Below, one piece after another: positions 22,513 through 62,098 of a stretch of 64,000 nt of DNA. This stretch comes from a virus. The stretch lies in the IMG/VR virus record IMGVR_UViG_3300030090_007211, positions 87,932 to 151,931 of that record; one strand, written 5' to 3'. The notes under the pieces were generated by a model. It worked only from the letters and a program-made list of their open reading frames with translations. It searched no databases and was not told the DNA's origin. Numbering within the stretch: position 1 is the stretch's first letter; each line of letters begins with the position of its first letter. Position numbers and translations under genes: made by a program.

Positions 22513-23048
22513 AAGTACTAGCTTTACCATTCATATTACTATTCTTAAATTTTAATTTAATATCACAACATTTAATGTCACCCCCTAATGCCTCGAGAAA
22601 AGAAGTGAAACTTATTAAAAGTATTTTAAAAGATTACGTAAATGATGAAGAAGCTTTACTAATATATAATCCTTATGCCCCACTATACTTTGGGATATAT
22701 GGTATAACCTACCAATATACTCCTAATATGTGTTTGATTAGTATCTCTGCCTCCATTGCAGATAGAGATAAACGATACTACGTTATATTACATGAACTGG
22801 GACATGTATTAGATATTTTCTATGGTGATCTAAGTGAATACCCTCCAATGTGGAAAGGTAAAAGAATGGATCACACATTAGATTGGAATGAAAGACCTTG
22901 GGAAATACATGCAGATGAATGGGCAAATAGATTATGGAAAAAATATTTACCAGGAGATCCACCACCAAATGATTTATTTGATAATGTTAGTTTCCCTCAT
23001 GATTGTATTTTCCAAAGATGGGGTTCCATCAAATTTAAAAGTGAGTAA
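22509..23048 (+). CDS. Exported zinc metallopeptidase (HExxH)
   Basis: 179 residues with a signal peptide (first 20, ending ISQ) and the zinc motif HELGH at 95-99; a third ligand is probably Glu132 or Glu137 (RPWEIHADEWAN), as in gluzincin-like small peptidases. It should act in the periplasm or outside the cell. The family is not recognised beyond that. Translationally coupled to the ParB-like gene by ATGA. A role in cell-wall or surface-protein cleavage is inference only. Confidence 0.75.
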   Translation: MKVLALPFILLFLNFNLISQHLMSPPNASRKEVKLIKSILKDYVNDEEALLIYNPYAPLYFGIYGITYQYTPNMCLISISASIADRDKRYYVILHELGHVLDIFYGDLSEYPPMWKGKRMDHTLDWNERPWEIHADEWANRLWKKYLPGDPPPNDLFDNVSFPHDCIFQRWGSIKFKSE

Positions 23049-23437: not shown

Positions 23438-23887
23438 CTAAAGAGATTTAATATCAATAAGGGTGGTACCTTTTCCTTTATTTTGAAGAGTAATTTCTTG
23501 TTCGTGGGGATAATAAATATTATTATGTAAAGTATTAAAAATATCAATTTGATCCTTATTAACACCCACAGTTATCAACACTACTTTATCTCCCGCATCA
23601 CTATATATTGATCCTTTATTATAGTGATTATATAATAGTTCTTTTTTATTGGGGGAATAATGATCACCTAGGGATTCTGTGTCTATTTCCTCTCCCTCAT
23701 GTAAATATAATAAACGATAGAGGGTAATAGTCTCAGGTAGAGTATTTAACCACTCTAAGAGTCTATTTAAGTCTTCCATACCCCACTCATTATCTAACCC
23801 CATTTCTTCATAGGCATTAGACAATTGAGTTAGTTCGTCACCAGTTAAAGTAACTTCTTCGTTTAATAATTTTATAAATGATATCAT
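23438..23887 (-). CDS. Candidate ADP-ribosyltransferase with [L/I]xE leader
   Basis: 149 residues from the ATG at 23885-23887 (a GTG directly before it is possible). It fits the R-S-E clade of mono-ADP-ribosyltransferases: Arg58 in ITLYRLLYL, Ser in GDHYSPNK or SIYSDAGD, and ExE as Glu129-Gln-Glu131 in PHEQEITLQNKG, the order and spacing of the Arg-modifying toxins and T4 Alt/ModA. These enzymes transfer ADP-ribose from NAD+ to host proteins such as RNA polymerase. The leader MISFIKLLNE has L-N-E, matching a prohead protease site. The box TATATTTATA is 4 bases upstream. Confidence 0.62.
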   Translation of the reverse strand: MISFIKLLNEEVTLTGDELTQLSNAYEEMGLDNEWGMEDLNRLLEWLNTLPETITLYRLLYLHEGEEIDTESLGDHYSPNKKELLYNHYNKGSIYSDAGDKVVLITVGVNKDQIDIFNTLHNNIYYPHEQEITLQNKGKGTTLIDIKSL

Positions 23888-39901: not shown

Positions 39902-41152
39902 TTATATCTGGTAAAAATAATATTTTTTATCCTCATATTCCACCTCATCTTCTATACCATTATAAGTGGCAAGAAAATGTGGTACCCCATCATAAGAAAT
40001 TGCATTATCTATCAGGCTACTTACATTTACATCAGCATAACCATACTCTATAGCATCATCTAAATCATATCCCAGATAATCTTCAAGATATAAGAATGGA
40101 TCATCCTCAATATCAGTCAGCCATATTTCTTTTCTTAATTCCCAATATTGGGTTTGTAGTTCATCTCCCTCATAGGATTTCTTTTGTATTTTATACTCTT
40201 TCAGTTCGTCAGATAATTTATTTTTTTCTTTATACGTCATTTCAATCATAGTTTGGATTTCCATAAAAAATCTTTCCGCTTCATTCAATTTAATTTCTAA
40301 TCTTTCAACCTCCTCCCCAAATTCTTCATACCCATAAGCTTCATCTTCATACTCAATATGACCACTTAATTTTTCAATTTCTTTCTCTAAAATTATTTTT
40401 TCTTTTTCTATGTTATCTCGTTGAAACTCTAATTCTTGTATTTCTCTTAATGTTACAACTATTTCCTTTTTAAGGAATTCCATTTCCTCTTCTATATCTT
40501 CGTAGTCTTCTTGTAAACCTAACTGATCACGCATAGTAAAAGGGCTCATTCTCCCCATGTCGTCATCCGCTCGATATTCTGCCTGTTCTTCAATCCACCA
40601 ATACAACCAATTAACCTCATCTACAACCCAACTGCTATTAAAAGCATTTAACCCCTCATTATTATAATCATCTTCAATTATAGTGGAGGCTGCATCATAG
40701 GATTGTTGTTCGCTATTACTCACCAAATATTCTTGAGTGTGTGATGTATGAAATTGCGATGGATTATCATCTATTATAAAAGCTTCGTATTGGGGTAAAT
40801 AAACTCCTGTGGGATCTCCCGCATCTATTTCCTCAATAAAAAAAGGGTCAATATCTAAGAACTTACTTAATGCTTCTATGTTTTTATTTTTTGGGGACTT
40901 TTTATCTAAAATGGCACTTTCCATTTCACTAAATTTTTGATCACCCTTATCTTTATTGTTAATATATAATTTTATTAATTGGGTGAGCATATATGGATTA
41001 GTAATAGATAACACCTTAACTAAAAAGTGTAATACATCCTTCATTGAGGTTTCTACCCCTTTCTTCTCCATAATAGATAACATTTTTTTCTCTATTGGAG
41101 TTAATTTAACTTTTTTTTCTTCGCCTTCTACTAATATGTTAGAAAATTTCAT
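39902..41152 (-). CDS. Acidic protein with [L/I]xE leader (416 aa)
   Basis: Starts MKFSNILVEGEEKKVKLTPI, with L-V-E at residues 7-9; a Met directly before it is equally possible. After the leader comes LTPIEKKMLSIMEKKG, almost the same as ITPKERKMLNLLNKLG at 53338. A long central coiled coil (about 225-330) is strongly charged. No catalytic motif recognised. Together with the three genes upstream it forms a tandem run of leader proteins, probably internal virion proteins (inference). Confidence 0.6.
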   Translation of the reverse strand: MKFSNILVEGEEKKVKLTPIEKKMLSIMEKKGVETSMKDVLHFLVKVLSITNPYMLTQLIKLYINNKDKGDQKFSEMESAILDKKSPKNKNIEALSKFLDIDPFFIEEIDAGDPTGVYLPQYEAFIIDDNPSQFHTSHTQEYLVSNSEQQSYDAASTIIEDDYNNEGLNAFNSSWVVDEVNWLYWWIEEQAEYRADDDMGRMSPFTMRDQLGLQEDYEDIEEEMEFLKKEIVVTLREIQELEFQRDNIEKEKIILEKEIEKLSGHIEYEDEAYGYEEFGEEVERLEIKLNEAERFFMEIQTMIEMTYKEKNKLSDELKEYKIQKKSYEGDELQTQYWELRKEIWLTDIEDDPFLYLEDYLGYDLDDAIEYGYADVNVSSLIDNAISYDGVPHFLATYNGIEDEVEYEDKKYYFYQI

Positions 41153-42024
41153 CATGCAATATTATTTCTACTAAACTTTTTTAAATCTTCTAGATTATCT
41201 ATTTTATATTGAATGGCGTAATCCACTTCTCCTCTCTCGTCTTCTAACTGGGTTTGTTGACCTGGCTCATCAATTTCTACTACTTCCTTATCATGAGTAA
41301 CATTATAAATAATATCGAATCTATATTTATTTTCCTCCACCCATAATAAAAATTCACTCCCATCTTTGGGTAATTCTATTTTTTCATCACTTACTACTAT
41401 AACCTCTCTTCTCCATAAAGTTGCAGTATCAAACTCTCTCCAATGTCTGGTTTCTCCCCCACATTCCCGACAATCATACGATATCTCTCCCACCCCTTCA
41501 CAATCAGAACAATCTTCCGGACCTTCTTCTTCATCATATATTACACTTCCATCTCCATCACAATAATTACATTCTTCATACTCCCAACCAGAACCCTCAC
41601 AATTCTCACAATCCCACGATTCTTCATCATATCCTTCCACTATCTCATCTTCATAATAATAAACTTTAGTTACCCAAAATGGGTCATCTAATCTTAAAGG
41701 GTCTTTCTTAAAATCTTTAACATCTATGTTTCTATATAAAAGATATAAAATAGATGCAATATCACTTTCAGTCAAATCACTAAAAATATTCTGTAACCAC
41801 GTACGTAATGGTACTAACTGATCATATTCTTTTCTCTTCAGTGGCCACATATTTCTAAATAAATCACTCAAATCCTGAGTTATTGCCTTATTAGGGTCTT
41901 TTATCTGTTGGGAGATACGATTTAAATCAAAAGTCTTAGATATCATATCTAATGCCCTCCTATAGAATTTATTATCTAAAGGGGTTTCTCTTCGTTGTTC
42001 ATTTAATATATCTAAAAATTTCAT
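41152..42024 (-). CDS. Leader protein with DnaJ-type zinc-finger repeats (290 aa)
   Basis: Leader MKFLDILNEQRRE (L-N-E at 7-9). Residues about 139-190 hold four CxxCxGxG-like repeats (CENCEGSG, CNYCDGDG, CSDCEGVG, CRECGG), as in the zinc-binding domain of DnaJ, expected to bind two Zn2+. There is no J domain. The flanking helices and end (EEVEIDEPGQQ region) are acidic. A chaperone-like or structural role in the virion is inferred. It overlaps 39902 by the stop and start codons. Confidence 0.65.
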   Translation of the reverse strand: MKFLDILNEQRRETPLDNKFYRRALDMISKTFDLNRISQQIKDPNKAITQDLSDLFRNMWPLKRKEYDQLVPLRTWLQNIFSDLTESDIASILYLLYRNIDVKDFKKDPLRLDDPFWVTKVYYYEDEIVEGYDEESWDCENCEGSGWEYEECNYCDGDGSVIYDEEEGPEDCSDCEGVGEISYDCRECGGETRHWREFDTATLWRREVIVVSDEKIELPKDGSEFLLWVEENKYRFDIIYNVTHDKEVVEIDEPGQQTQLEDERGEVDYAIQYKIDNLEDLKKFSRNNIA

Positions 42025-42026
42025 AT

Positions 42027-42992
42027 CTAATAATGTAAATAATCGTTTAATATTTGACCAATGTAGGTAAATGTTTCATCCGTATCCCCATCAGTCTCAA
42101 AATGAATCTCCGGATGTTCGTCAACATATTTTTTAATATCTAACCCAATTTCTTCATTAACGTCTAACTCTTCGTCATCATACTGCCAACTAGGTTGAGA
42201 TCTTATATAATCTATTACTTTTTTAGCATCCACATCAGTAAAGTACTGATTTAATTGATCTATTGCCATCTCCATTTCCACTCTATCAATAAATAATAAC
42301 ACATCTTCCTCATTGTCCGCATCATACATCAACGGCTCATCTGCATGACTTGTCTCTAAATAAGAACTAGTAACATAAATTTTATCCCCCATCCCATGAG
42401 TATTAAATGTTTTCCAAAAATTTCGTTGTCCAAATTCAGGATTATATGGTTTCCAATTAGGATTAGTGTAACCCATAAAATCACCGCTACTAATAGGTAT
42501 TAAACTTTTACCACCAAAATTTCTTTCTCTTCTAAAAGATTCTGGATCATAAACTTCTTTTTTCCATCTTTCCCATAATTCTATCATTATACCTGGAGGT
42601 ACGGAATAGATTTCCATAAAATTTCCTTCACTACTAGAACCAGAACCAAACAAGTTTTTTAAATGTGCCACTAAACGTAAATTATCATTAATTAACGATT
42701 CCTTTTCAATCAATTTTGACCTTAAGGATAAAATGTCATCTATCTCCATATCTAATACATTTTTATGTGTATCCAATAATTCTTTTAGATTTTGGATTTG
42801 TATATTCGCATTCATTGCTGCGGCCCTATACTCATATGCTTCATTATTACTATACATAGTATTATATGCAGCATTAAACCAATCGGTATCCACATAAAGG
42901 TTCTCATACCATTGAGTAAGTTTAGGTATTAATGCATTGATAAATCTTTCATTACCTTTAGTATTTTCATATAGTATCTCAATTATTTTCAT
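42027..42992 (-). CDS. Acidic protein with [L/I]xE leader (321 aa)
   Basis: Leader MKIIEILYENTKG with L-Y-E at 7-9. Mostly helical and acidic with no known domain; the middle is a coiled coil (QNLKELLDTHKNVLDMEIDD, ILSLRSKLIEKES). It shares the position and style of its neighbours but lacks the zinc repeats. One-base overlap upstream. Confidence 0.6.
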   Translation of the reverse strand: MKIIEILYENTKGNERFINALIPKLTQWYENLYVDTDWFNAAYNTMYSNNEAYEYRAAAMNANIQIQNLKELLDTHKNVLDMEIDDILSLRSKLIEKESLINDNLRLVAHLKNLFGSGSSSEGNFMEIYSVPPGIMIELWERWKKEVYDPESFRRERNFGGKSLIPISSGDFMGYTNPNWKPYNPEFGQRNFWKTFNTHGMGDKIYVTSSYLETSHADEPLMYDADNEEDVLLFIDRVEMEMAIDQLNQYFTDVDAKKVIDYIRSQPSWQYDDEELDVNEEIGLDIKKYVDEHPEIHFETDGDTDETFTYIGQILNDYLHY

Positions 42993-43894
42993 TATACTTT
43001 TCCTAATATATCAATTATTATCATATCCATTACTCCTGGTTCACTTACTTTTTTCTTTTGAAATTCTTCTATTTTATTGGCGTCATCTTCTACATATGAT
43101 ACATATTCTTCTGTCACATCATCCATAAAAATCTCATCTAATATTATAACATCATCACTATATTTATCCATAAAATCATTATAATTTACCGGTGGAACCA
43201 TAATATGTGTAGAACCGTCGTCAAACTTCGCTTTACGAGTAGGTGAAATAATAGTAGATGGTGTAGGAATATCTTCTAAACTTAACATAATCCACTCATA
43301 TAGATTAATAGTATATTCCTCATAATCTTCGGGCACTTCGCCGCCTCCACCACACTCTTCACAATCATTGGTTACTTCTCCGCTTCCCTCACAGGAATCA
43401 CAAGATATCATGATAGGGTTACCCTCATCGTCCGTATCTGTTTCTTCTTCCCCACTTCCATCACACATTTGACACTCTTCGTCATTACTACCATAACCAT
43501 CACATTCATAACATTCCTCATAACGAGTATCCCATTCTTCTTGAATATCCCCATACGCACTTATATGATATAAATAACCATCCCAGTTGGTGGTTATATC
43601 ATCAACTAAATAATTTTTTTTCCCATTTAATAAAAGTATCCATATTAATTGCCCTATTCTTGTGGGTTCACTTATATAAAGAACATCTCTTATGAATTTT
43701 TGTATGGGTAAAATATAACTTTTAATAAAAGTCTTATAACGTGAGTTCCCATTAAAAGCATCGTACGCTATCTCAATTTTCTTAGGTAGTTGTTTAGAAA
43801 TAATACTTAACAACCTTCTATTAACCTTACTATCTAAGTCAGAAAGAGGAGATTGTGGAGATTTTTCTTCTAATATCTGTGTGAACTTTATCAT
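42992..43894 (-). CDS. Leader protein with DnaJ-type zinc-finger repeats (300 aa)
   Basis: Leader MIKFTQILEEKSP (I-L-E at 7-9 or L-E-E at 8-10). Cys-rich section at about 128-181 with CYECDGYG, CQMCDGSG, CDSCEGSG and CEECGGGG, paralogous to 41152-42024, and a similar helical opening. First gene of the leader run; its exact TATATTTATA box at 43899-43908 is 4 bases upstream of the ATG. Confidence 0.65.
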   Translation of the reverse strand: MIKFTQILEEKSPQSPLSDLDSKVNRRLLSIISKQLPKKIEIAYDAFNGNSRYKTFIKSYILPIQKFIRDVLYISEPTRIGQLIWILLLNGKKNYLVDDITTNWDGYLYHISAYGDIQEEWDTRYEECYECDGYGSNDEECQMCDGSGEEETDTDDEGNPIMISCDSCEGSGEVTNDCEECGGGGEVPEDYEEYTINLYEWIMLSLEDIPTPSTIISPTRKAKFDDGSTHIMVPPVNYNDFMDKYSDDVIILDEIFMDDVTEEYVSYVEDDANKIEEFQKKKVSEPGVMDMIIIDILGKV

Positions 43895-45681: not shown

Positions 45682-46011
45682 ATGGATAAAGGAAAAAATT
45701 TATTAATACTATACTTTCATAAGTATAAAACACATTTATTAGGTCTAGAAGAAAACGATTTAATAGAATTTTTAGATATGTCATTAACTGATATAAAAAA
45801 ACATGCCTCTAAATTTAGTAAATTAAAAACTAAACGAGGAGAATTAAGTGAAGATGAAAAACTACAACTTTCAGTATACGAAACCCATAAAGATTTAAAA
45901 AGATATAATCTATTGAGTGAAATTAAGTCTAATACTAATATTGATAAGTATATAAGTAGTAAAATCGCAAGATTAAATTATCCTCACCGAAATTTGAGAC
46001 CACTTAATTAG
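45682..46011 (+). CDS. Hypothetical basic protein (109 aa)
   Basis: Soluble, helical, Lys-rich (SLTDIKKHASKFSKLKTKRG), preceded by TATATTTAATTTATAA. It ends inside the tail of the giant minus-strand gene with an 8-base overlap. No family recognised. Confidence 0.5.
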   Translation: MDKGKNLLILYFHKYKTHLLGLEENDLIEFLDMSLTDIKKHASKFSKLKTKRGELSEDEKLQLSVYETHKDLKRYNLLSEIKSNTNIDKYISSKIARLNYPHRNLRPLN

Positions 46012-49000
46012 TTTTTACTATATTGGCAGAATAGATTTCATATCTATTGTTTAAGGTAACAAAATAACTTCCGGCAGATAAGTTACTTATATTAACTACT
46101 TGTTCATTCTTTCCTTTTACATTATAAGGGGAAATTTCTTTTATTATTTTACCCATCATATCATAAATAAAGATATTATATTCACCAATAGAGGTTAAGT
46201 TATATTGGATGTGTATATTATCTCCAACCTTAGTGACATTATATTGATTCACATTAGAAATATAGTCATTTTGTAATTCCACTATATTAGAATATTCAAA
46301 GCTACCATCATAATCTGTTTGTTTTAATCTATAATAAGAAATCCCAGGTAAAGGATTATTATCGTATGTGACATAGGTTATAGGATCAAAACTATTGCCC
46401 GCACCAGGTATCTCCTCGATTTCTTCAAATTCAATACCATCTAAAGTTCTTTCTATTGTGAAAAAATCATTATTAATCTCTGTGGCGGTAGTCCAATTTA
46501 TTAAAACTTTATCTTGAACAAGATTAACATTAAAAGATAAAAGTTCGATTGGTAAGGCAGAACCACCCCCATCACCAAACCCAAAATCAGAAAAGGAAGT
46601 TAATCCATATGATTTTATTTTACCATGTACTGATGTTCTATATTCACTATTATCTGAAGCTAAGTCGCCAGCAATTGCCCACCCATTAATAGATGTGTTG
46701 GAAGTATCGGTTTTAATAGGTGCAAGTTTACCAGACGTACCCATTTCATCAAATACATTAGTATATAACAAAAGATCATAAGTACCGGACGTAGGTTGAT
46801 TATTAGGGTGTATTCTCCAATACCCTTCTTCTAACATTTTAGAAAGATTAAAAGCTTTAGTAGAATCCGTTTTAGGGACACTATATCCTGCATTTGCAAA
46901 ATCAGAGGCGGAAGAATAAGAAGGATGTTTACCCACTATAAATCTAGTGGTTATGTATGATACTCCTTCTAAATCTTTAAAATCTACCCTTGCTCGATAA
47001 TATCTTGGTGTTGACCCCCCATTTGGTGGAATGATACCCACCGGAAATTCATATTTTTGTTTACCTAAATAACCACTTGATTTAGTATGTCTTCTTAAAT
47101 TCCCCCAAACATACGATTTAGATTTTAAATTATGGGTAGTCCCATCCGCACCAACAATTGCGTTTGGATTTTTGTTTTTAATTACTACACGAGAAAATGG
47201 GTTTGTACCCACAGTTTTAATTACTCCATCGGTCAATTTAAGTTTACCATTAGTACCTATTATCAACCCATCTATAACATTAATGGAAACGGGATCCTTT
47301 GTATTGTTTATTTCAACATTATTAAATTGTTGCCCTTTACTAGTAACAGATTGGATGTCCGTTCCTGCAAATGTTACTGTATTAGTACCAGGAATAAATG
47401 TAGCACCCGCGGTTACTACGAAGTTACCTTTAAGAGTTATATCTTTATTCTGACAATTTAACTCTCCAGATGATAATCTTAAGTTACCATTTACCGTAGT
47501 ATTATCTGCTAGTAATACTCCACCTGAACCATTTATTGTTAGGTTATTTATTGTGTTACCATTTGTAGTTAAAGTAATAGAATTCGTACCACCCAATGTT
47601 ATATCTGCCGTCCCATAATGATCTGCAGAGAGAGTCATATCTTCCGTTACTTTTATTGGTGTTGACCCTAAACAAGAAACACTTATATCATCTAAACAAA
47701 TATCACTTGCATAGTTTGATCCTGTTATACCTTTAAAACGTATCACCAATGATTTTTCAGATTGGTAGGTAGTTAAATCTAATACTCCTTGCCTCCATTC
47801 TTTACCCATATCCCCTGCAACTGCACCACTACTCATAAAATCTAAATCATTTGTCCAATTCATCCCATGATCTTTACTTACTTGGACGGTTAGGGATCCC
47901 ATATCAGTACCATACATATGGTATTGAAATGTTAATACAGGGTAGGTTAGGACACTTAAGTTAAATGGTGGTGACCATAATTCAAATGTTTTATTCGGGT
48001 AATTAGGAGAGGATGCTTCTATATATAAAAACGTACTTGCACCTGATGGTCCTGTACTTGGAGATGGTGTTGATGATGAATTAGCTCTCCAATCTCCATT
48101 ATCGCCTGTTTTGTTTCTCCATGCAGTTGCAACAAATTCAAATCCTATATCTCCTGCTGTAGTTGAGTGATCTGTTTCTGATTCGAAATCAACCGATGCA
48201 GGAAACGATGATACTACGTTAGCTGATTTAACTGCAGTTGATTTAGTAGATGAATTACCACCAGTATTTGAAGCATATACTTCAACATTACCATTTTGTT
48301 TTCCAACGGTTACTGTAAGTGATTTTGTTCCTTGACCTGCAGTTATATTCCAGTCGGATGGTACTGCCCAAGTATAAGATGTAGCATTAGCAACTGGGTC
48401 AATTGTATATGTTTGGCTTGATGTTTCATTCGGATATGAATCCCCAGTTATTGCAACAGGTGCACTTGGGGGTGGAGTATAATTTGATGTTACAAGAGAT
48501 ATTTCATCAATGTGTACTACGTCTCCTCCACATCCTGCACTTTTACTTGCATTACTATATTTGGTACACGCTTCCCAAGCAACTGTAAAATTAGATCCGC
48601 TGTAAGCAGATAGATCATACTCCATAGTTTCCCATGTACCACATGTACTATTATTTTCCCCACTAAAATATATATCACCATTTTTATCAGCAACGGGAGT
48701 ACCATTTACTGTTAACCTAAACCAACTGTATAATTTATTATAGGTGTATTGTTGACGTTTCTTAAACTTTAAAGTAATAGTATTATCGTTAGTTGAACAT
48801 ATTTCTCTACTCACTTTAGAAACGTGGGTAGGTGAATTTTTAAATGCGTCTGGTCCGGTACCATAAGATGAACTCCAACCTGTACTTGTCCCCCCATCCA
48901 TTAATAAACCATATTTACCTGCAGAATAAGCATAACCGGATATACCCGCACCAGATTGGGAATTGGTGGTAGCAGACATTAGTGTAGTGCCCTCAAAGTC

Positions 49001-49606
49001 TTGAGTAAATGGTGTTTGTGCACATGGTGTAGGTCCATATCCTCCACAATCTGACGCACTACATACTACTATATCATCTAAACAAATATCACTAGTATAA
49101 CTAGGACCTAATTCCGCATAAAATCTAAGATAGGTTTCTACCCCTGCTAATACGTCTAAATCTATAGTTTTACTATACCATACATCTCCTTGATCCCCAC
49201 TAGCAATAGTTTTTAAAGTTATCCAATATGCACCATCAAGAGAAAATTGTAGTTTTAATGTTCCCATATTAGTACCATACATATGATAATAAAAACTTAT
49301 CTGAGGATCCGCAATCGCAGTAAAGTCTGCTTTAAATTCTATTCCTGCCGTACTACTATAATTTCCAGTTGCTTCTGTGTAGATGTAAAAATTTCCCCCA
49401 TTCGCACCTGCCGGTCCAGTTCCACTACTACCTGTTTTTCCTGAATGGAGAGTCCAATCCATATCATCCGATATTGATTGTTTCCAATTACCAAATCCTC
49501 CCCCTTCAAAACCTTCACTATCCGGTAACTGACCTAGCGTTACTCCACCATTGAAAATAAAAAATAAAATGATTAATTTATATAAGACTGTTTTAATCCA
49601 CTTCAC
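46004..49606 (-). CDS. Giant T9SS surface protein with MAM-like domains (1200 aa)
   Basis: Signal peptide (1-25), then two MAM-like jelly-roll domains (about 28-185 and 470-650; each closes with SDICLDD), a domain after the first MAM resembling the second half of a MAM (about 200-375), a PKD-like domain (about 385-460; SYTWAVPSDWNITAGQGTKS), beta-solenoid-like repeats of Asn/Gly (LTTNGNTINNLTINGSGGV), and a C-terminal T9SS domain (VVNISNLSAGSYFVTL). All are typical of Bacteroidota adhesins. It would be placed on the host cell surface or released. A phage gain could be surface change or superinfection exclusion (speculative). Confidence 0.85.
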   Translation of the reverse strand: MKWIKTVLYKLIILFFIFNGGVTLGQLPDSEGFEGGGFGNWKQSISDDMDWTLHSGKTGSSGTGPAGANGGNFYIYTEATGNYSSTAGIEFKADFTAIADPQISFYYHMYGTNMGTLKLQFSLDGAYWITLKTIASGDQGDVWYSKTIDLDVLAGVETYLRFYAELGPSYTSDICLDDIVVCSASDCGGYGPTPCAQTPFTQDFEGTTLMSATTNSQSGAGISGYAYSAGKYGLLMDGGTSTGWSSSYGTGPDAFKNSPTHVSKVSREICSTNDNTITLKFKKRQQYTYNKLYSWFRLTVNGTPVADKNGDIYFSGENNSTCGTWETMEYDLSAYSGSNFTVAWEACTKYSNASKSAGCGGDVVHIDEISLVTSNYTPPPSAPVAITGDSYPNETSSQTYTIDPVANATSYTWAVPSDWNITAGQGTKSLTVTVGKQNGNVEVYASNTGGNSSTKSTAVKSANVVSSFPASVDFESETDHSTTAGDIGFEFVATAWRNKTGDNGDWRANSSSTPSPSTGPSGASTFLYIEASSPNYPNKTFELWSPPFNLSVLTYPVLTFQYHMYGTDMGSLTVQVSKDHGMNWTNDLDFMSSGAVAGDMGKEWRQGVLDLTTYQSEKSLVIRFKGITGSNYASDICLDDISVSCLGSTPIKVTEDMTLSADHYGTADITLGGTNSITLTTNGNTINNLTINGSGGVLLADNTTVNGNLRLSSGELNCQNKDITLKGNFVVTAGATFIPGTNTVTFAGTDIQSVTSKGQQFNNVEINNTKDPVSINVIDGLIIGTNGKLKLTDGVIKTVGTNPFSRVVIKNKNPNAIVGADGTTHNLKSKSYVWGNLRRHTKSSGYLGKQKYEFPVGIIPPNGGSTPRYYRARVDFKDLEGVSYITTRFIVGKHPSYSSASDFANAGYSVPKTDSTKAFNLSKMLEEGYWRIHPNNQPTSGTYDLLLYTNVFDEMGTSGKLAPIKTDTSNTSINGWAIAGDLASDNSEYRTSVHGKIKSYGLTSFSDFGFGDGGGSALPIELLSFNVNLVQDKVLINWTTATEINNDFFTIERTLDGIEFEEIEEIPGAGNSFDPITYVTYDNNPLPGISYYRLKQTDYDGSFEYSNIVELQNDYISNVNQYNVTKVGDNIHIQYNLTSIGEYNIFIYDMMGKIIKEISPYNVKGKNEQVVNISNLSAGSYFVTLNNRYEIYSANIVKTN

Positions 49607-49756: not shown

Positions 49757-52700
49757 CTATTCTTTTATGAAACGCAATGTTCCTTTGCGTTGATTATGAT
49801 CTACTTCTAATAAGTAATATCCTTTACGATATTTTTCTACATTTAAATGGAGAACTTTGTATTCCCCTATAAATCCTTTAGTATAAAGTTTTTGCCCTTT
49901 TGTATTAAAAATAGTTAAATGAGTCACCCCACGTAAGGTTTCTTCTAAATAAAGGTGTAATTCATCTTTTACTGGATTAGGGTTAATACTTAATATGATT
50001 GGTTTATCATACATAATACTTATAGGATTAAATATTTCATTTTTACCATCATAATCGGTTTGTGATAATCTATAATATGATACCCCATTATAAGGATTCT
50101 CGTCAAATATTTTATATGTCATTAAAGTATTAGTATTACCTCCACCAGGAATTTTAGAAACTTTTTCCCAATTTTCACAATCTAAACTCCTTTCAATTTC
50201 AAAATAATCATTATTTACTTGACTAGCAACTACCCATTCTAATTCTACATTACCATTATTTAATTCACCATTAAACGACACTAATGTAATTGGTAGTGCT
50301 GTACCCCCAGTACCACCGAAACCGAATAGACTAAAAGAGGTAAATCCACTTTTTTGTCCATATCCACTTGCAAGTGTTCTGCCGGGTTGTCCAGCAGCTG
50401 GGATAGAAGTGGTAGATTCATATGTTCCCCAATCTGCCCAGGTTGTAGAATTATCATCTCTTTTAATAATCGTAAAATTATCATCTTGCATAAATCCACC
50501 TGACACCCCATTTAAATATAAATTTACACCATAGGTTCCACCAGTAGGTTGATTATTAGGTGTTAATTGCCATTGTTTATCAAATACTTCAATTAAAGGG
50601 CTAGTCATCTGATACGCATTTAAATCATTATAATTTCCTACAGGCATTCCACCAACCGAAGCGTCTATGTACGACACCCCTGTTAAAAAATTATTTATTA
50701 AATCTACTTTATGATAATCATCAGTGGTTGTACCGTTCCCTATAGGGAATTCATAAGTACCAGAACTACTAGCAATATACCTTCTTAAATTACCATTAAT
50801 AAAAGAAGTTGTACTTCCTCCCGCAATTGCACCTGTTGGGGTGGCTTTGGTTATTATTTTATTACTACCTGTAGTTATTACCCCATCTGTTAAAGTAAGA
50901 ATTCCATCGATTTCTAAATCTCCACCACTTAATGTTACCCCATTTGTGTTGGATATAATTAAATTAGAAATACTATAACCATTAGGGTTTATGGTTTGAG
51001 CCGCACCCCCACTCAAAATTAAACTATGAGCATTACTATAAGAGTTAGACCCTAACGTGATATTTTCTCCTACGTTTACTGCAGTGCTTTGAGCATCTAC
51101 TAACTTGATGTCATCCAAACACACATCACTATCCCAATTAGAACCGGTAGTTGCAATAAATCTAAACATAATATTAGATTGATTACCATAGGAGGATAAA
51201 TCAATAAATCCTTGTCTCCAACCTGATCCCATATTTTGGTAGATGACTGCATTAGCACAAACAGAATTACACATAAAAGGTATATTACTAGACCATGTAC
51301 TACCGTTGTCCGTACTAGATTGTAATGCTAAAGTAGCACCAGAGGCACTTTGTAAATTAAACCAAAATATTAAAGTTGGTGAATTTAATGAAGTAAGATT
51401 ATATGGGGGTGACCATAATATGAACTCTTTGGAGGGGAAATTAGGTGTAGAGGCCTCTACATATAGATATTTACCTGTAGAAGTGCCTGGATTATGATCG
51501 GATTGTCCACTAGAGGTAGTACCAGGACCAGTACCTGATGAACCAGTACCTCCCGCATCTGCTCGCCAATCACCATCATCTCCACTTACATTTCTCCATC
51601 CATTAACACTAAATTCAAAACCTGATGTCGATGCACTAGTAGAATGTTGTGTTTCATTTTCAAATGCTGTTTCATAAGGATAAGAAGTTACTAGAACTGC
51701 AGTTTTAATACTCAATGTTCTAGGGGTAGATGTACCTGCCATATTAGTGGCAGTAACACTCATTGACCCATCATTATCATCAGTTTGAACATTTACTGAG
51801 GTAGTACCTTGACCATTTATAATTAACCAACCATTAGGGGCTACCCAAGTATAAGTATCAACATTAGACATAGGACTAACACTATATGTAACTATCTCCC
51901 CTGAATTTGGATAAGTATTACCGCTGATAGCACCAGGAGTAGATGGTGGTGATAATCCTGCCGCTTGACTTATTAAAATATTATCTATATACGACGCATC
52001 ACCACCCATTCCTGTACTCGTATAACCAGTATAATATTTATTACAAGTTTCAAACGCTATAGTGAATGCACTTCCACTATACTGAGATAAATCATAAGTC
52101 ATTGTTTCCCAAGTGTTATTACTTCCATTAAAGTAAGTATTACCATTTATATCAGCAATGGGATTTCCATCTACCGTTACCCTAAACCAAGAGTAGTTAA
52201 CATTATATGTATAAGTTTGTTTTTTATCAAAAGTAAGAGTGACTGTGGGTAAAAGAGGTGCACATATTTCTCTACTTACACTAGCAATGTGTGAAGGAGA
52301 GGATGAAAAAGTTATCGCCCCAGTACTATAAGATGAACTCCACCCTGTATAACTATTACCCTGCATATGTAACCCATATGAACTAGCATTTGCACCTGTG
52401 GCGTCTAAGGCTATTTGGGATCCTGAACCAGTAGTTGCAGTCATTAAAGTGGTTCCACTTTCAAAATCTTGATTATAATCTAATGTAGCACAAGGAGTAG
52501 GTCCTGGACATGCGCCCACTCCTACGTTTTGTGTTCCCCATACTCCCATTGCGATGGTATTACCACCACCGTCAGTACAGTCCCACGATATTTCACTATC
52601 CCAATCTCCGGAAACCCACAATAATTTTATATCGTCTCCAGCGGTTGCTTGAAAAGTAACTGCCTGAGATGATCCTGTGAGTAATTCTAAAAATGCTGCA

Positions 52701-52897
52701 GGAGCACCATTTACTGTGATTGATACACTAGCACCATTCCAACCATCCCCATAAGAATCATATCCTGTGAATGTATGTGTACATTGTGAAAAACTTTGTC
52801 CACTTATTAAAGATATTACTAATAGTAAACCCCACAAATTATTAGTAAATAAATTACTTATTTTTTTTAAAAACTTATTATTCTTCATCTTTTCCAT
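49757..52897 (-). CDS. Giant T9SS surface protein, paralog of 46004-49606 (1046 aa)
   Basis: Signal peptide in the first about 38 residues (LLLVISLISGQSFSQ). Domains: a CUB-like or Asp-rich beta domain (FTGYDSYGDGWNGASVSI), a MAM-like section (GYTSTGMGGDASYIDNI), PKD-like TWVAPNGWLIINGQGTTS, a second MAM ending VCLDDIKLV, a beta-rich section and a T9SS domain (KVLHLNVEKYRKGYYLLEV). Same layout as the neighbour, so the pair arose by duplication, with a different first domain. The ATG at Met1 or Met4 could be used. Confidence 0.85.
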   Translation of the reverse strand: MEKMKNNKFLKKISNLFTNNLWGLLLVISLISGQSFSQCTHTFTGYDSYGDGWNGASVSITVNGAPAAFLELLTGSSQAVTFQATAGDDIKLLWVSGDWDSEISWDCTDGGGNTIAMGVWGTQNVGVGACPGPTPCATLDYNQDFESGTTLMTATTGSGSQIALDATGANASSYGLHMQGNSYTGWSSSYSTGAITFSSSPSHIASVSREICAPLLPTVTLTFDKKQTYTYNVNYSWFRVTVDGNPIADINGNTYFNGSNNTWETMTYDLSQYSGSAFTIAFETCNKYYTGYTSTGMGGDASYIDNILISQAAGLSPPSTPGAISGNTYPNSGEIVTYSVSPMSNVDTYTWVAPNGWLIINGQGTTSVNVQTDDNDGSMSVTATNMAGTSTPRTLSIKTAVLVTSYPYETAFENETQHSTSASTSGFEFSVNGWRNVSGDDGDWRADAGGTGSSGTGPGTTSSGQSDHNPGTSTGKYLYVEASTPNFPSKEFILWSPPYNLTSLNSPTLIFWFNLQSASGATLALQSSTDNGSTWSSNIPFMCNSVCANAVIYQNMGSGWRQGFIDLSSYGNQSNIMFRFIATTGSNWDSDVCLDDIKLVDAQSTAVNVGENITLGSNSYSNAHSLILSGGAAQTINPNGYSISNLIISNTNGVTLSGGDLEIDGILTLTDGVITTGSNKIITKATPTGAIAGGSTTSFINGNLRRYIASSSGTYEFPIGNGTTTDDYHKVDLINNFLTGVSYIDASVGGMPVGNYNDLNAYQMTSPLIEVFDKQWQLTPNNQPTGGTYGVNLYLNGVSGGFMQDDNFTIIKRDDNSTTWADWGTYESTTSIPAAGQPGRTLASGYGQKSGFTSFSLFGFGGTGGTALPITLVSFNGELNNGNVELEWVVASQVNNDYFEIERSLDCENWEKVSKIPGGGNTNTLMTYKIFDENPYNGVSYYRLSQTDYDGKNEIFNPISIMYDKPIILSINPNPVKDELHLYLEETLRGVTHLTIFNTKGQKLYTKGFIGEYKVLHLNVEKYRKGYYLLEVDHNQRKGTLRFIKE

Positions 52898-53337: not shown

Positions 53338-54483
53338 TTATAATTCAAATGTGAAGTATGTCTCGTTTCCTATATCGTGTTCATTATAGTCTCCTGTACC
53401 AGTACTAAGAACTTCGCCCCAATCTGCTTCACCAGCAAAATCTGATATTGCACTTTCGGCATCAAAATCAAAATAATACTGAATGGCATCCTCTCTGTCC
53501 ATACCATAGTTATCAGTAAAAAATGATAAACCTTCTGTTTCAATATCACTTATCATATCTTCCATATATTTCTCTTTTAATTCTTCTGTGGCAGTTTCTT
53601 CTAAACCATATAGTTTATCTCTAAGGTCTTGAGCTTCTTCCTCCCATCCAGTCATAGCACTTTCTTTGTCGTCTCTCTCGTATTCTTTATCACTTATCTC
53701 TTCTTCTAATTCTTGGTATTCATCGGAAATGAATGCTTCTTCGTCTTCTTCTTCCATTTCTTCTAATAGTTCTCGTAACTCTTCTATTTCACTTTCTAAC
53801 TCCTCAATTTCCTCTTCCAACTCCTCTTTCTTACCTTCATACTCCTCAATGGTATTTTCCATATCCTCCGCATCATAACCCGCCTCCTCAATAATTTCAG
53901 ACTCATCCATGTCCCTTAATCTATTCTCTACATAATCTTCCACAAACTCTTCTATAGCATAGTCATCGGGGGATAGGTATTGTTCTAACCACCATTCTTC
54001 AAAATTATCCAGATATTCCATTTCATCTCTAGCATAAGTTTCTAACGCATCATCTACCTCTATATCTGTACCTATAGCCCATTCGTTATTCTCTAATAGG
54101 TCTCTATAAACCGGTAATTCATAATGTCTATAATCTGCCCTTTCAAACATAAATGGAGGGGTACCTGTTTCTATAGATAATGCCCTTATCTCATCATCAT
54201 AATCTTCAAGCTTAGTAAAATTACTTAAATCAATACTAACTAAATCGTTAAAAGTTTCATCTTCATCATCGGGGTCTCTCCAATGTTGGGTGAAAATATA
54301 AATTAATCTTAATGCTAATTCTTCATCTCCAATATATAAGGGTTCACCTACTAACGCACCCCATACCTCTCCTGGATCTAAAGGGTCAACACCCAATTTA
54401 TTAAGTAAATTAAGCATCTTCCTTTCTTTAGGAGTTATCTTATGCATCTCTGCCTCTTCTTTTATTAATTTAAATAATTTCAT
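53338..54483 (-). CDS. Acidic leader protein with coiled coil (381 aa)
   Basis: Leader MKLFKLIKEEAEMHKITPKE, with I-K-E at 7-9, then ITPKERKMLNLLNKLG as in 39902. The middle (about 200-290) is an extreme Glu-rich coiled coil (EYEGKKEELEEEIEELESEI). Very acidic overall. It lies next to the related 54484 gene with no gap. Inferred internal virion protein. Confidence 0.6.
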   Translation of the reverse strand: MKLFKLIKEEAEMHKITPKERKMLNLLNKLGVDPLDPGEVWGALVGEPLYIGDEELALRLIYIFTQHWRDPDDEDETFNDLVSIDLSNFTKLEDYDDEIRALSIETGTPPFMFERADYRHYELPVYRDLLENNEWAIGTDIEVDDALETYARDEMEYLDNFEEWWLEQYLSPDDYAIEEFVEDYVENRLRDMDESEIIEEAGYDAEDMENTIEEYEGKKEELEEEIEELESEIEELRELLEEMEEEDEEAFISDEYQELEEEISDKEYERDDKESAMTGWEEEAQDLRDKLYGLEETATEELKEKYMEDMISDIETEGLSFFTDNYGMDREDAIQYYFDFDAESAISDFAGEADWGEVLSTGTGDYNEHDIGNETYFTFEL

Positions 54484-55641
54484 TTAATAATCTGTTTCAT
54501 ATACATAATAAATATCTCCTTCTTTATCTTTATGCGTTTCCATATATCTAACATCACTTAAAATTTCAAAATCTTTATATTTTACTTCCTGGTCAATTAT
54601 CTTATCTACATCAATATGTAACCATCCTGGTAATAAATCAGGGTCAAACGTACTGCTCGTAGTTCCATATGATGATGAAGATACCCTCAGAGTTCCACCA
54701 AATTGTAAATCCCCTCTACTAGTTTTATCAATATATCCCAACTCCCATAAATAATCGATCAAATTATTTTCTAATCTATCATATATGTCTTCATAAATTC
54801 TTTCTCTTACACTTTCTCGACCTTTTTGTAATATTTTATCTAATTTATTTTCTAAAATAGTAGTATCTTTATCTTCTTCTTCATATTCTTCTATTTTCTC
54901 CTTAGTCTCCATATATTCCTCCCATATTACATCTTCATCATCTAATTCATTAATGATATCTTCATCACTCATTTCAGATTCTAAATGATCTGATTCGTCA
55001 ATCGCAATTAATCTCTTATCAGTATCAGTTACTTCTAACCTATGGATTAATTCTTCTTCACCAATATACTCTACTAACATTCTATCATCAATATATAATC
55101 CTTCAAAATAATCCCTTAATGCATCTTCCGATTCATCTTCATCTCCTATAAAATAATGTGCTTGTCTTACCATATCATAAATTATGGGCATACCATACGT
55201 AGTCTCCTCAGTAGGTATTACCCATAAAGGAGAAACACCCACTAATTCCGAATAAAGTTTAGATTCAGGTGAAATAACTAAATCTCTTTCTTGTTTATAT
55301 AATTGATTTTTATAATTTCCTTCTACATTAAAATTGTTGAAGAATAAATCTCCATAATAATCAACGTCTTTAGGTGATAAATGTAAGGTATCTTTTAAAA
55401 ATTTTACAACTGCCCTAACAATATCTTCATCCACATTAATCATTGCGTCTTCAATATATTTTTTATCTTCATCGTCCCATGTATCGCTAGAGGTTTTTTG
55501 ATTATTAATACCATGACGTACTTGAAGTATTAATGAATATACTTTGGGTAGTGCTTTAGTGTGTAAAAGATTTAGTATTTTTTTATCACTATTACTTAAT
55601 TCTGGATCATTAATATCAGATTCATGAAGAAGTATACGCAT
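54484..55641 (-). CDS. Acidic leader protein (385 aa)
   Basis: Leader MRILLHESDINDPELSNSDK with L-H-E at 5-7, then LSNSDKKILNLLHTKALPKV, again the leader plus KKILxLL pattern of 39902 and 53338. Acidic, helical, with VSSSSYGTTSSTFDPD low-complexity near 300. Same transcript as 53338. Function unknown. Confidence 0.6.
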   Translation of the reverse strand: MRILLHESDINDPELSNSDKKILNLLHTKALPKVYSLILQVRHGINNQKTSSDTWDDEDKKYIEDAMINVDEDIVRAVVKFLKDTLHLSPKDVDYYGDLFFNNFNVEGNYKNQLYKQERDLVISPESKLYSELVGVSPLWVIPTEETTYGMPIIYDMVRQAHYFIGDEDESEDALRDYFEGLYIDDRMLVEYIGEEELIHRLEVTDTDKRLIAIDESDHLESEMSDEDIINELDDEDVIWEEYMETKEKIEEYEEEDKDTTILENKLDKILQKGRESVRERIYEDIYDRLENNLIDYLWELGYIDKTSRGDLQFGGTLRVSSSSYGTTSSTFDPDLLPGWLHIDVDKIIDQEVKYKDFEILSDVRYMETHKDKEGDIYYVYETDY

Positions 55642-57206: not shown

Positions 57207-59381
57207 TCAATCACCAAATCTGTCAGGATCCATTGGATCTAACTCGTCTTCTATTTCTAAATTTTCTGTATCTTCATTAGTGAGATAATGTCCCAGAGGT
57301 CTAGGTGGTTCTAACTCATTGAATCGTGTTGCCAGTTCCCTTAATGCGATTAAATCCCCAATAGTTTCTGGGCGCTCTGTCACTAATTCTTCACCAATTA
57401 TATTTCCTTGACGACCATAAATATTTCTTAATCTTGTTTCCTCTATTTCAGGTGGAACTTCAGTTATCTCATCATCAATAACGTGCTCGATAAAATCGTT
57501 TCCTATATCCATTCCTTCCCTATCAAAGATATAACCAAATTCATTATCAACAGGAACTGCTTCCAACCCGTAAGTTATTTCATTATTTTTAGTAGATAAA
57601 TCTTGAGTAGTTGCTAATAAGGCATTATTTAAAACCATCATATCTTCATAATTTTTTAGTCTAGATTGGTACACCATTTTCAATAAGTTAGTATTGAGAT
57701 GGGTTATTAAGAGTTGGGAAATAACCGTATGATACAAACTAGGTTTTTTATTACACGTAGATAATAATTGTTGTATCCCATAACTTAAACCATTTTTTTC
57801 TACAAAAATTTCAAATGCAGAAGTGCTGTTAATAGTTTTAATAATAAAAACTTTTACCTTACCTTCTTTAATTTTATCTGCATAACCTTGACCTTCATTA
57901 TTTAAACAATTTTTTAATTTTTGTCCTGACCATTGTAACTGACACTCACTGATTATTTCCTTTATTTCTACATTGTCAGGTAACTCTAATCCACTTATAT
58001 CTTGAGGTTGGATTAAAGGTTTATCCATTTCTTTCTTTTTAGCTTCTACCCATTTCATCATATTCTTATGGGTAGGTAAAATAGAAGAATTAGACTCCTC
58101 TAGTGCCTGTGTTAAAATATTTAAAATAAAAAACCCTTCCTTCTTAATTATTCTCTCAATATCATTAACAAAGGTAAGGGTTTGTTGTAGATTCATTTCA
58201 TACTTACCAATAAATCTAGTTATAATAGGATTTTTCCTTATAACCTCATCAATATTATTAACATGTTCTAGAGTAAAATCACAATTATAGAAATTGGGGT
58301 TTACTAATGCCAATAATTTGGTATATGAACCATTTTCTATAATTAATTTCGCCTTATTTATTTGAGTCTTTTTCATTTTCCCCCTAATTAAATTATATGC
58401 ACTCATAAATGTGAGGGGATTAGGTACAGTACCTTTTAATATATCACTCATGGATAAATTTCTCTCACTATATTTGGTAGGAGTTAATGTCCATAATCTA
58501 TCATTTAGATTCGCCCATCTTTCTAATACACCTTGTGGGGGTGTACGATGAGGATCTAACCAATTAACTGCATGATCTTTATCTAATTTTTTATTATGCT
58601 GTTTTGTTCTATATTGATACCTTGCATCCCATACCCTTCTTTTATGGTCAAAAAATTTAATCATTCGGAAATAATGTTTTAGTTCACCATAATACCGAAT
58701 ATACATATCTTTATACTTATCCGTAAAATAAAATCCGAATTGAGACCTATCTAAATGTATAATATTATCACTCAATAATGGTTGTGATAATAATTCCATA
58801 CATGCTTCTACATTACAATAACAATTAAGTTCCTTTTTCTTTTTAAATAATCGTATGGCGGTATGGGCAGGAGTATAAACTGAAGTAACATCCAACTGTT
58901 TAGTTTCCAAAAATTCTTCAAACTCTGTAGTATAATAAAGTGTATTAGTTGATAGGTCGATTCCCACCTGACAACAATTAAGGTCAAACCCTTTTAAAAT
59001 ATAAGTAGGGTTAGATGCTCTATTTCTATTATCTATGGCAGAAATATCAATAATATTATAAAACCCCTCATATCTTACACCAGTAATTCTATAGGTAGTA
59101 TCTCGTTGGTAACCTATTGTACCCCCATAATAACCATCTTCTACAATTAGACTGTCTGAACGTAAAGGTGCACTACTGGATCGTGTCGGACCATCTGGGT
59201 CTTCCTCGATGTAAATATCTAAATCATTAATGGGATACTCTATGTCCCCATATTTCATCCCTAATAAAGTATTAGCAACTGCCCCACCTGCCAAAAACCC
59301 TTCTTTTGGAATGGGGGCAATCTCATTTAATCTACGTAAAATTTGTTCAACAATATTAGACTCTTTTAAAATATTTTCCAT
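57207..59381 (-). CDS. Nucleotidyltransferase-like plus PcfJ-like fusion (724 aa)
   Basis: N-terminus: leader MENILKESNIVEQIL (L-K-E at 5-7), then a nucleotidyltransferase fold with GG at 32-33 (FLAGGAVAN) and Asp53 and Asp55 (INDLDIYIEE), and a possible third carboxylate near 150 (GFDLN). About residues 480-560 resemble PcfJ (SGQKLKNCLNNEGQGYADKI, VKVFIIKTINSTSAFEIF). The last 100 residues are acidic and basic mixed. PcfJ-like domains are common in mobile elements. The enzyme substrate (RNA tailing, nucleotide transfer) is unknown. Confidence 0.72.
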   Translation of the reverse strand: MENILKESNIVEQILRRLNEIAPIPKEGFLAGGAVANTLLGMKYGDIEYPINDLDIYIEEDPDGPTRSSSAPLRSDSLIVEDGYYGGTIGYQRDTTYRITGVRYEGFYNIIDISAIDNRNRASNPTYILKGFDLNCCQVGIDLSTNTLYYTTEFEEFLETKQLDVTSVYTPAHTAIRLFKKKKELNCYCNVEACMELLSQPLLSDNIIHLDRSQFGFYFTDKYKDMYIRYYGELKHYFRMIKFFDHKRRVWDARYQYRTKQHNKKLDKDHAVNWLDPHRTPPQGVLERWANLNDRLWTLTPTKYSERNLSMSDILKGTVPNPLTFMSAYNLIRGKMKKTQINKAKLIIENGSYTKLLALVNPNFYNCDFTLEHVNNIDEVIRKNPIITRFIGKYEMNLQQTLTFVNDIERIIKKEGFFILNILTQALEESNSSILPTHKNMMKWVEAKKKEMDKPLIQPQDISGLELPDNVEIKEIISECQLQWSGQKLKNCLNNEGQGYADKIKEGKVKVFIIKTINSTSAFEIFVEKNGLSYGIQQLLSTCNKKPSLYHTVISQLLITHLNTNLLKMVYQSRLKNYEDMMVLNNALLATTQDLSTKNNEITYGLEAVPVDNEFGYIFDREGMDIGNDFIEHVIDDEITEVPPEIEETRLRNIYGRQGNIIGEELVTERPETIGDLIALRELATRFNELEPPRPLGHYLTNEDTENLEIEDELDPMDPDRFGD

Positions 59382-60974: not shown

Positions 60975-61442
60975 TTAGGTTAACTGATTGGCGGGTCCTC
61001 GTGCAGGACTTACTGACCATGGAGAATTATCTAAAGTATTATCCGGACCTCTTTGAGGGCTTACTGACCATGGGGAATTATCTAAAGTATTCGCCGGTCC
61101 CCTAGTGGGTGAAACTAAATCATCCCATTTGGTGTAACTACCTGTGGAGGCGCTTTCTCCACCACCTTCTTCTTGTTCCTCAATAGGTTCTTCTTCTTCT
61201 AAACCAATACCATATTCATTTACTACAAACCCCGAGTCTTGCTCTTTATCATAATAACCTAAATAAACCCCATAATGATCATATACTATTACTTCATATT
61301 CATTACTACTAAAATTTAAATCATTAGGTGAGTCTACCCAACTTAGAATATGAGTATACCATTCTTTAGGGTCATTAATTATTTCCCCGAACTCTCTCAG
61401 TAACACTTTTTTGTATTGGGACTCTGTAAGTTTAATTTTCAT
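60975..61442 (-). CDS. LTESQ-leader protein with C-terminal RGP repeats (155 aa)
   Basis: Leader MKIKLTESQYKKVLLREFG (L-T-E at 5-7), then an acidic middle, an E-rich spacer (LEEEEPIEEQEEGGG), and three copies of a 17-residue repeat: RGPANTLDNSPWSVSPQ, RGPDNTLDNSPWSVSPA, RGPANQLT. The repeats are encoded by nearly identical 51-base units. Possible receptor or packaging peptide. Belongs to the LTESQ group. Confidence 0.6.
   Translation of the reverse strand: MKIKLTESQYKKVLLREFGEIINDPKEWYTHILSWVDSPNDLNFSSNEYEVIVYDHYGVYLGYYDKEQDSGFVVNEYGIGLEEEEPIEEQEEGGGESASTGSYTKWDDLVSPTRGPANTLDNSPWSVSPQRGPDNTLDNSPWSVSPARGPANQLT
61001..61110 (-). repeat. 51-bp tandem repeat inside the 60975-61442 gene
   Basis: The 31-base segments starting with TTACTGACCATGG at 61010-61040 and 61061-61091 differ at one position and recur with a 51-base period, in frame, encoding 17-residue RGPxN.LDNSPWSVSP units. 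Copy number could vary between isolates by slippage. Confidence 0.75.
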
Positions 61443-61444
61443 TT

Positions 61445-62098
61445 CTATCCTATATTACTTAATAACTTCTGAAAATTATACCTTGATAAATCAAAGTCAT
61501 TATCCTCATCATTTTTATATGGTAGAACCTCATACTGATTGTCTTCATCATAAAAATCATCTTTAACCATTTCTTTTTGGGGATTGATTTCCTCTATGTC
61601 ATCCAAATCAAATACATTTTCTATAGTTTTAAAGTTTAAATCCATTTCTCCTACTACAAAATCTTCTACATCACCAATTCTAATATTCTTTAATGCTTCT
61701 TGTGGGGTTTTCCCCATTACGTATATATTGGCATCAGGATATCCTCTACCAACTATTTCAATAGTTGTAGGTACAGAGGTAGGTATTTTCCATACCCCCA
61801 TATACTCTAAAGGTTTACCTATTAACTCCTTCAAATCATGTTGTGAGTGGAAATCTACCATTATTTTAAAATTATGTGCCAAAATGATTGCCTCCTCTTG
61901 GGTTAACACTAAATCCTCCATTATATAGTCAACAATGTTATAATTCATTTTTAACTCTCCGTTTTGTATTTTATCTCTAATTTTTTCAAATACCTTTACC
62001 ATGAACGGATTTACTGTCTTACTCACTCTTCCCCAGTTCTCACCAGTGTCCTCAGTTAATAATCTATTATATTGGCTTTCTGTTAATTTAATTTTCAT
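61445..62098 (-). CDS. LTESQ-leader protein (217 aa)
   Basis: Leader MKIKLTESQYNRLLTEDTG. Paralog of the next gene (62100-62708): both share a helical part (FMVKVFEKIRDK against FIIKCFNFIRKR) and ELIGKPLEYMGVWKI against EFLGEPLEFYGEFEF. Acidic, no known domain. Probably made in the same transcript as 60975 and 62100. Inferred virion protein. Confidence 0.6.
   Translation of the reverse strand: MKIKLTESQYNRLLTEDTGENWGRVSKTVNPFMVKVFEKIRDKIQNGELKMNYNIVDYIMEDLVLTQEEAIILAHNFKIMVDFHSQHDLKELIGKPLEYMGVWKIPTSVPTTIEIVGRGYPDANIYVMGKTPQEALKNIRIGDVEDFVVGEMDLNFKTIENVFDLDDIEEINPQKEMVKDDFYDEDNQYEVLPYKNDEDNDFDLSRYNFQKLLSNIG

Follow-up and report, generated by a model that had tools for sequence, protein, structure and literature searches.

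Short N-terminal leaders ending in hydrophobic-x-Glu on many proteins of a T4-type marine phage: candidate capsid-targeting sequences

The stretch of DNA analysed here, called the window, comprises 64,000 nucleotides, positions 87932-151931 of the 151,931-base virus record IMGVR_UViG_3300030090_007211; the whole record is referred to as the contig. Four adjacent genes of the window, at 39902-43894, start with a short leader that ends in [LI]xE, and similar leaders are found on genes elsewhere in the window. Genes were predicted with a simple home-made caller, which yields 234 genes and on which the gene starts depend. An earlier note, made from the letters of the window, had listed twelve such N-termini, all of which are present; the open reading frame called at 39902 begins one codon earlier (MMKFSNILVE), and the one at 23438 is taken from its first ATG. 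They are given here in window coordinates, with the leader classes that are described below and with a hyphen for the bond that follows the Glu of the motif.

43868-43894, minus strand: leader MIKFTQILE, class D, of gene 42992-43894 (300 amino acids, DnaJ-type zinc-finger protein).
42966-42992, minus strand: leader MKIIEILYE, class D, of the orphan gene 42027-42992 (321 amino acids).
41998-42024, minus strand: leader MKFLDILNE, class D, of gene 41152-42024 (290 amino acids), a paralogue of 42992.
41126-41152, minus strand: leader MKFSNILVE, class D, of gene 39902-41155 (coiled-coil protein; orthologues begin MKLYNLISE-S).
54457-54483, minus strand: leader MKLFKLIKE, class D, of gene 53338-54483, from the superfamily of 39902.
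55621-55641, minus strand: leader MRILLHE of gene 54484-55641.
59361-59381, minus strand: leader-like MENILKE of gene 57207-59381 (nucleotidyltransferase/PcfJ-like; orthologues begin MKNLLEE and MNSDILKE), the weakest of the set.
61392-61442, minus strand: leader MKIKLTESQYKKVLLRE, class A, of gene 60975-61442; a relative with 66% identity has the identical leader.
62051-62098, minus strand: leader MKIKLTESQYNRLLTE, class A, of gene 61445-62098.
62661-62708, minus strand: leader MRIKLLESQYNRLLKE, class A, of gene 62100-62708.
7607-7672, minus strand: leader MGRTIKLTESQLNRIIQQVIEE, class A in its long form, of gene 7175-7672.
23858-23887, minus strand: leader MISFIKLLNE, class D, of gene 23438-23887.

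The distribution of the motif is not random. In a basic test, proteins of at least 60 amino acids were scored for [LI]xE with the Glu at residues 7-10, and shuffled residues 2-25 and internal windows served as controls. As the earlier note had expected, the frequency is above background: 42 of the 196 proteins of the contig carry the motif, compared to 14.5 ± 3.6 for the shuffles and 11.6 ± 3.2 for the internal windows, and 42 is reached in 0 of 1500 trials. For the window only, the count is 20 of 90 proteins, with 6.0 ± 2.3 expected. The excess sits in minus-strand genes; the first 22 kb of the contig show no such surplus (2/26, with 1.7 expected). When the motif is tightened to hydrophobic-[LI]-x-E and the Glu is allowed at residues 6-24, 59/196 proteins match, versus 19 ± 4 (shuffles) and 13 ± 3 (internal windows), z being 10-16. 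With homologues collapsed (own genome and 80 relative loci), 45 of 197 clusters match versus 14.7 ± 3.7. The surplus beyond background is about 40 proteins in the contig; the observation is real, and the "at least ten" proteins that had been proposed understate its scale.

The stricter test applied to two leader-rich relatives, G012 and G022, gives z values of 8-14. The cultured Flavobacterium phage vB_FspM_immuto reaches about 5 (stricter motif in 18/206 proteins versus 6). The value for T4 is 1.6-2.4, or 2.8-3.3 with the Glu at residues 6-12, and a short form of the test recovers IPI, IPIII, Alt, gp22, gp24 and the gp21 N-terminus, gene names that we assigned to the T4 matches; the test thus detects known cases. 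No excess is seen in the Bacteroidota phages phi14:2, phi38:1 and crAss001, and a profile search finds no S77 protease in any of the three.

At least five classes of leaders can be distinguished in the contig. Class A, with MKIKLTESQxxRLLxE and longer forms, is present on 14 genes, class B (MKxIIxxILKEE) on four, class C (MSRLGKLKRQLIEEANKRLLGE) on five and class E (EExxRMRxLM) on two, while class D (MKFxxILxE) includes the four adjacent genes. Relatives have further forms, such as MKKIIRLTESDLxRIVKRVIxE and MNLQEEIQRIREMMGxxxE. The nine residues MKIKLTESQ, in a few cases MKIKLTETQ, stand in front of 14 cargo clusters that have no detectable mutual similarity, and so the description of the leaders as borne by otherwise different proteins holds for the genome as a whole. 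For the four neighbours it holds only in part: 41152 and 42992 are paralogues (E = 5e-19), and their family and that of 39902 and 53338, which form one superfamily joined via orthologues, have in common a helical region of about 70 amino acids after the leader (hhalign E = 4e-5, probability 69%). This region could be a second, non-cleaved core-binding part. A motif like (F/L)TPxEKKxLxxLxKK is also seen, weakly (E = 0.0015), in a third family, contig 22097-22903.

Within the MKIKLTESQ clusters, 13 out of 14 have a second hydrophobic-x-Glu at residues 12-24, at variable spacing, versus 3.4 ± 1.6 expected. Some relatives of gene 32693 have lost the first Glu (MKVIINNRQHLLLVED) and retained the second site, which makes E7 (LTE-S) less likely than the second site to be the sole position of cutting. 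We infer that this second site is where cleavage would occur. The leaders look as if they were built in two parts, a class-specific targeting stretch and then a hydrophobic-x-Glu processing site. Such a layout fits that of T4, the capsid-targeting sequences of which are 10-19 amino acids long and cut at L/I-x-E; the residues for targeting and processing are separable, for in the ten-residue leader the N-terminal part serves targeting, and residues 8 and 10 serve processing (PMC9026906).

The head genes lie on the minus strand at 22-33 kb of the contig, beyond the limits of the window. They encode a gp23-type capsid protein (Pfam Gp23, E = 4e-73), a portal (PHROG 213, E = 5e-62), a large terminase, an acidic scaffold-like protein and a core-type protein. 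A T4-type prohead protease, the presence of which the earlier note had predicted, is encoded at contig (G000) 26577-27041 (Peptidase_S77, gp21-type; PF03420, E = 1e-25 to 1e-24). In an alignment, GExxHP and G(V/I)SSRG blocks and a C-terminal DxVxxPS block are common to this protease and those of T4, immuto, G012 and P-SSM2. Its His (HP) and Ser (SSRG) motifs are intact and aligned with those of T4 gp21, and we take them to be the catalytic ones on the strength of what is established for gp21. In the capsid protein, LL(N/T)E-(A/S) ends at residue 60; L57, L58 and E60 are invariant in 18 sequences, x and P1' vary, and the block aligns with the T4 cut site FLTE-A and with IVSE-A of immuto. It is a predicted cleavage site that matches the leader motif. 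The core-type gene 28035 has mostly I(L/V)xE-S across 39 sequences. The motif was not found at the N-terminus of the terminase, portal and protease families.

The leaders are conserved, and they behave as modules. Across the 17 sequences of the 22097 family, the leader M(R/I)IKKKxxLLE-(A/S) hardly varies, with 4.3 bits for L10 and E11, against an average of 2.6 bits for the remainder. Orthologues of window genes in four relatives retain a leader at 27-36% overall identity, for example MIKFKDILKE-S, MKLYNLISE-S and MKLFKLYE-Q; those of 42992 do so at 28-35%, with MIRFKDILKE-S and MIKLTQILNE-S. For one apparently leaderless relative an upstream start, probably the true one, gives MIKFINIMEE. In G012, a leader is present on 22/30 orthologues of leader genes versus 2/20 orthologues of leaderless genes (p = 1e-5). 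The peptidoglycan-binding protein 70161 has a class C leader here, and the homologous cargo in G012 has an RLTESQ leader. Gene 54484 and its orthologues have different leaders that all end in [LI]xE-S (MRILLHE-S here; MYKLRDYIIE-S or MYKLRDYITE-S in the orthologues), and homology starts only at residue 12/13, past the leader. Similarly, the homologue of 23438 in G012 is fused to a different N-terminal part, homology running from residue 14, directly past the leader.

The MKIKLTESQ leader is also specific. A DNA pattern for it matches 73 IMG/VR stretches, versus 4 when its residues are scrambled. Cellular genomes totalling 257 billion bases contain 4 matches, only one of which is a true leader; it lies in a Prochlorococcus single-cell assembly, on a contig that also has genes of the phage group studied here. 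S77 is present on 22/33 leader-bearing contigs larger than 40 kb. Four IMG/VR records, G008, G024, G025 and G027 (loci L102, L128, L135 and L138), combine the MKIKLTESQ leader with a 632-amino-acid protein that has two Peptidase_S77 matches; they probably represent another phage group, in which the protease occurs as an unusual tandem.

Most of the cargo lacks an assigned identity. The recognisable part includes an NlpC/P60 protein with a peptidoglycan-binding domain, a SleB-type cell-wall hydrolase and further peptidoglycan-binding proteins, besides metalloprotease-like, nucleotidyltransferase-like and DnaJ-type zinc-finger proteins. The cell-wall enzymes and peptidoglycan-binding proteins with leaders are encoded outside the window, at contig 54427-55245, 70161-71039, 81266-82249 and 82962-84470, and are candidates for head packaging and ejection. 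Among phage ejection proteins, T7 gp16 is a precedent for a head-packaged cell-wall enzyme.

The interpretation to which we give a probability of about 0.86 is that the leaders are T4-type capsid-targeting sequences, strongly expanded and diversified. This is what the earlier note had suggested, and its suggestion is strengthened by the protease gene, the enrichment of the motif and the matching capsid-protein site in 18 relatives. The N-terminal part, which differs between classes (MKIKLTESQ, MKxIIxx and MKFxx are examples), would dock the new protein onto the prohead core; the S77 protease would then cut at hydrophobic-hydrophobic-x-Glu during head maturation, and the freed cargo would remain in the head alongside the DNA and probably be ejected into the host. 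Such a leader appears to be present on about 40 proteins of the phage, with similar numbers in the two leader-rich relatives.

Other explanations can be imagined. The leaders might address another site of the virion, such as the tail or baseplate, or keep the proteins on the scaffold, the Glu motif being part of a docking helix instead of a cleavage site. The cell-wall enzymes among the cargo (NlpC/P60 with a peptidoglycan-binding domain, SleB-type hydrolase, PG_binding_1) are tail-borne in many phages and speak for this idea. It is nevertheless improbable, since the [LI]xE at the end of the leaders is also that of the expected cut sites of the capsid and core proteins, and since the second site is variably spaced yet conserved in its motif, as would be expected of a protease site. 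Furthermore, in the AlphaFold model of the 42992 family (predicted local distance difference test score 57, usable solely for the helical domain 23-90), the leader is predicted with low confidence and apart from the folded helical domain. A second possibility is ancestry only: an old N-terminal helix would have been duplicated among paralogues, without a common function. Two of the four adjacent genes are indeed paralogous and the post-leader region is held in common, but 14 cargo clusters under one leader without detectable homology, a cargo family that has different leader classes according to the phage (70161) and leader residues that are conserved while the flanks diverge leave this very little room.

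A signal at the nucleotide level, a translation enhancer or RNA element at the gene start that incidentally encodes these residues, is less probable still, although A+T-rich starts of the MK type are frequent in such genomes. Positions of class A with the same residue share a codon in 362/545 pairs versus 325 expected from the codon usage of the genome; codon use is thus close to random for the genome, which points to selection on the protein, and long forms and shifted sites retain the residues and not the DNA register. This candidate was rejected on the basis of codon diversity. Chance or N-terminal composition bias in an A+T-rich, Lys/Ile/Glu-rich proteome, in which about 7% of proteins match by chance, may apply to single entries, but was rejected as next to inconceivable for the whole set by shuffles, internal windows, an enrichment of z = 7-16, its absence from the three Bacteroidota control phages and conservation.

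Several observations weigh against capsid targeting, or at least against its generality. The Rhodothermus phage RM378 bears S77 and shows no motif excess, so that it was rejected as a leader-rich relative and the presence of the protease alone is no predictor of leader expansion. No S77 match is found on 11/33 of the leader contigs, though these are possibly fragments. P1' is looser than at the capsid-protein site, with A/S/G at 20-30% versus 13-15% internally. Finally, the chance rate of about 7% makes single entries (57207, 55903, 59748) weak, and some of them, such as the ferritin-like gene 55903 and the peptidase 59748, are probably due to chance.

It seems somewhat more plausible than otherwise that the capsid-targeting leaders amount to a general delivery platform, in which dozens of proteins per phage, about one fifth of the proteome, are carried in the particle and, at infection, delivered by means of several distinct and interchangeable tags with a common protease-cut end. 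If true, a leader read from the sequence would mark hypothetical proteins that are likely to be carried in the particle and possibly delivered to the cell. It would provide a testable list of candidates for early host takeover and anti-defence in phages in which most genes lack an assigned function. Natural head-loading tags beyond those of T4 would become available, as would a case for studying how a single protease and a single core handle the sorting of many cargoes.

In comparison with T4 (IPI, IPII, IPIII and Alt, cut by gp21), the short N-terminal leaders of 7-19 amino acids ending in [LI]xE, the head genes (terminase, portal, S77, gp23), the near-identical leaders on different cargo (MKTYQEFIAE on IPI and IPIII in T4) and the order of targeting and processing are alike. 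Unlike T4, with a handful of leader proteins, this phage has about 40, in at least five classes that differ in sequence (LTESQ, IIxxILKEE, KxKRQLIEEANKR, MKFxxILxE, EExxRMRxLM), with mostly uncharacterised cargo that includes cell-wall enzymes, and with hosts that are probably Bacteroidota. Inspection of the gene list revealed no similarity to MKTYQEFIAE beyond the motif; the two have in common only their length, a Lys close to the first residue and the hydrophobic-x-E at the end. In the giant phages phiKZ, 201phi2-1 and SPN3US, many head and ejection proteins (19 in 201phi2-1) are processed after Glu by a gp21-like protease, the phiKZ cut sites being S/A-x-E (PMC9026906). The leaders described here differ: they are short, follow the L/I-x-E pattern of T4 and recur almost unchanged on unrelated cargo. 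A literature search across 5.39 million papers gave no earlier mention of these leader sequences; the capsid-targeting literature found covers T4, P1 and giant phages.

Judged by the capsid protein, the Flavobacterium phage immuto group and RM378 are among the nearest named records, and the host is likely to be a member of the Bacteroidota. With the terminase as query, 307 IMG/VR stretches that encode a relative were retrieved, and the phage belongs to a widespread and very common marine group. The capsid protein of immuto is 41% identical over aligned pieces, and this phage also has an S77 protease and, on a smaller scale and mostly in its late half, leaders (MKKSQLRQIIKEA, MISIYNILKE, MENFDLKKFLVENKLTxNSK). 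Candidate cut points are MKKSQLRQIIKE-A, MISIYNILKE-V and MENFDLKKFLVE-N. It differs in its weaker excess and other leader sequences; its proteins are mostly annotated as hypothetical and the leaders are unmentioned. Several immuto proteins (NC_055915, 1803-2318 and 102294-118931) start with a MENFDLKKFLVENKLTxNSKxLxE-type sequence, which constitutes an extra leader class.

Some minor observations concern individual genes. Gene 42992 has relatives in five records by genome search, while a peptide-pattern scan of IMG/VR gave none and tblastn against cultured phages gave no match; Foldseek with the model of its family yielded no significant match, the best being a DnaJ-type phage protein (E = 0.012). 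Gene 42027-42992 has no homologue among the relatives searched. The adjacent large proteins at 46004-49606 (1200 amino acids) and 49757-52897 (1046 amino acids) of the window are homologues of each other and have no PHROG match. In cyanophage P-SSM2 (NC_006883), proteins at 100269, 158143 and 169737 start with MKSFKQFLEE, MKSFSQFLTE and MKSLSQFIIE, which resemble capsid-targeting sequences and are near to T4 MKTYQEFIAE in form.

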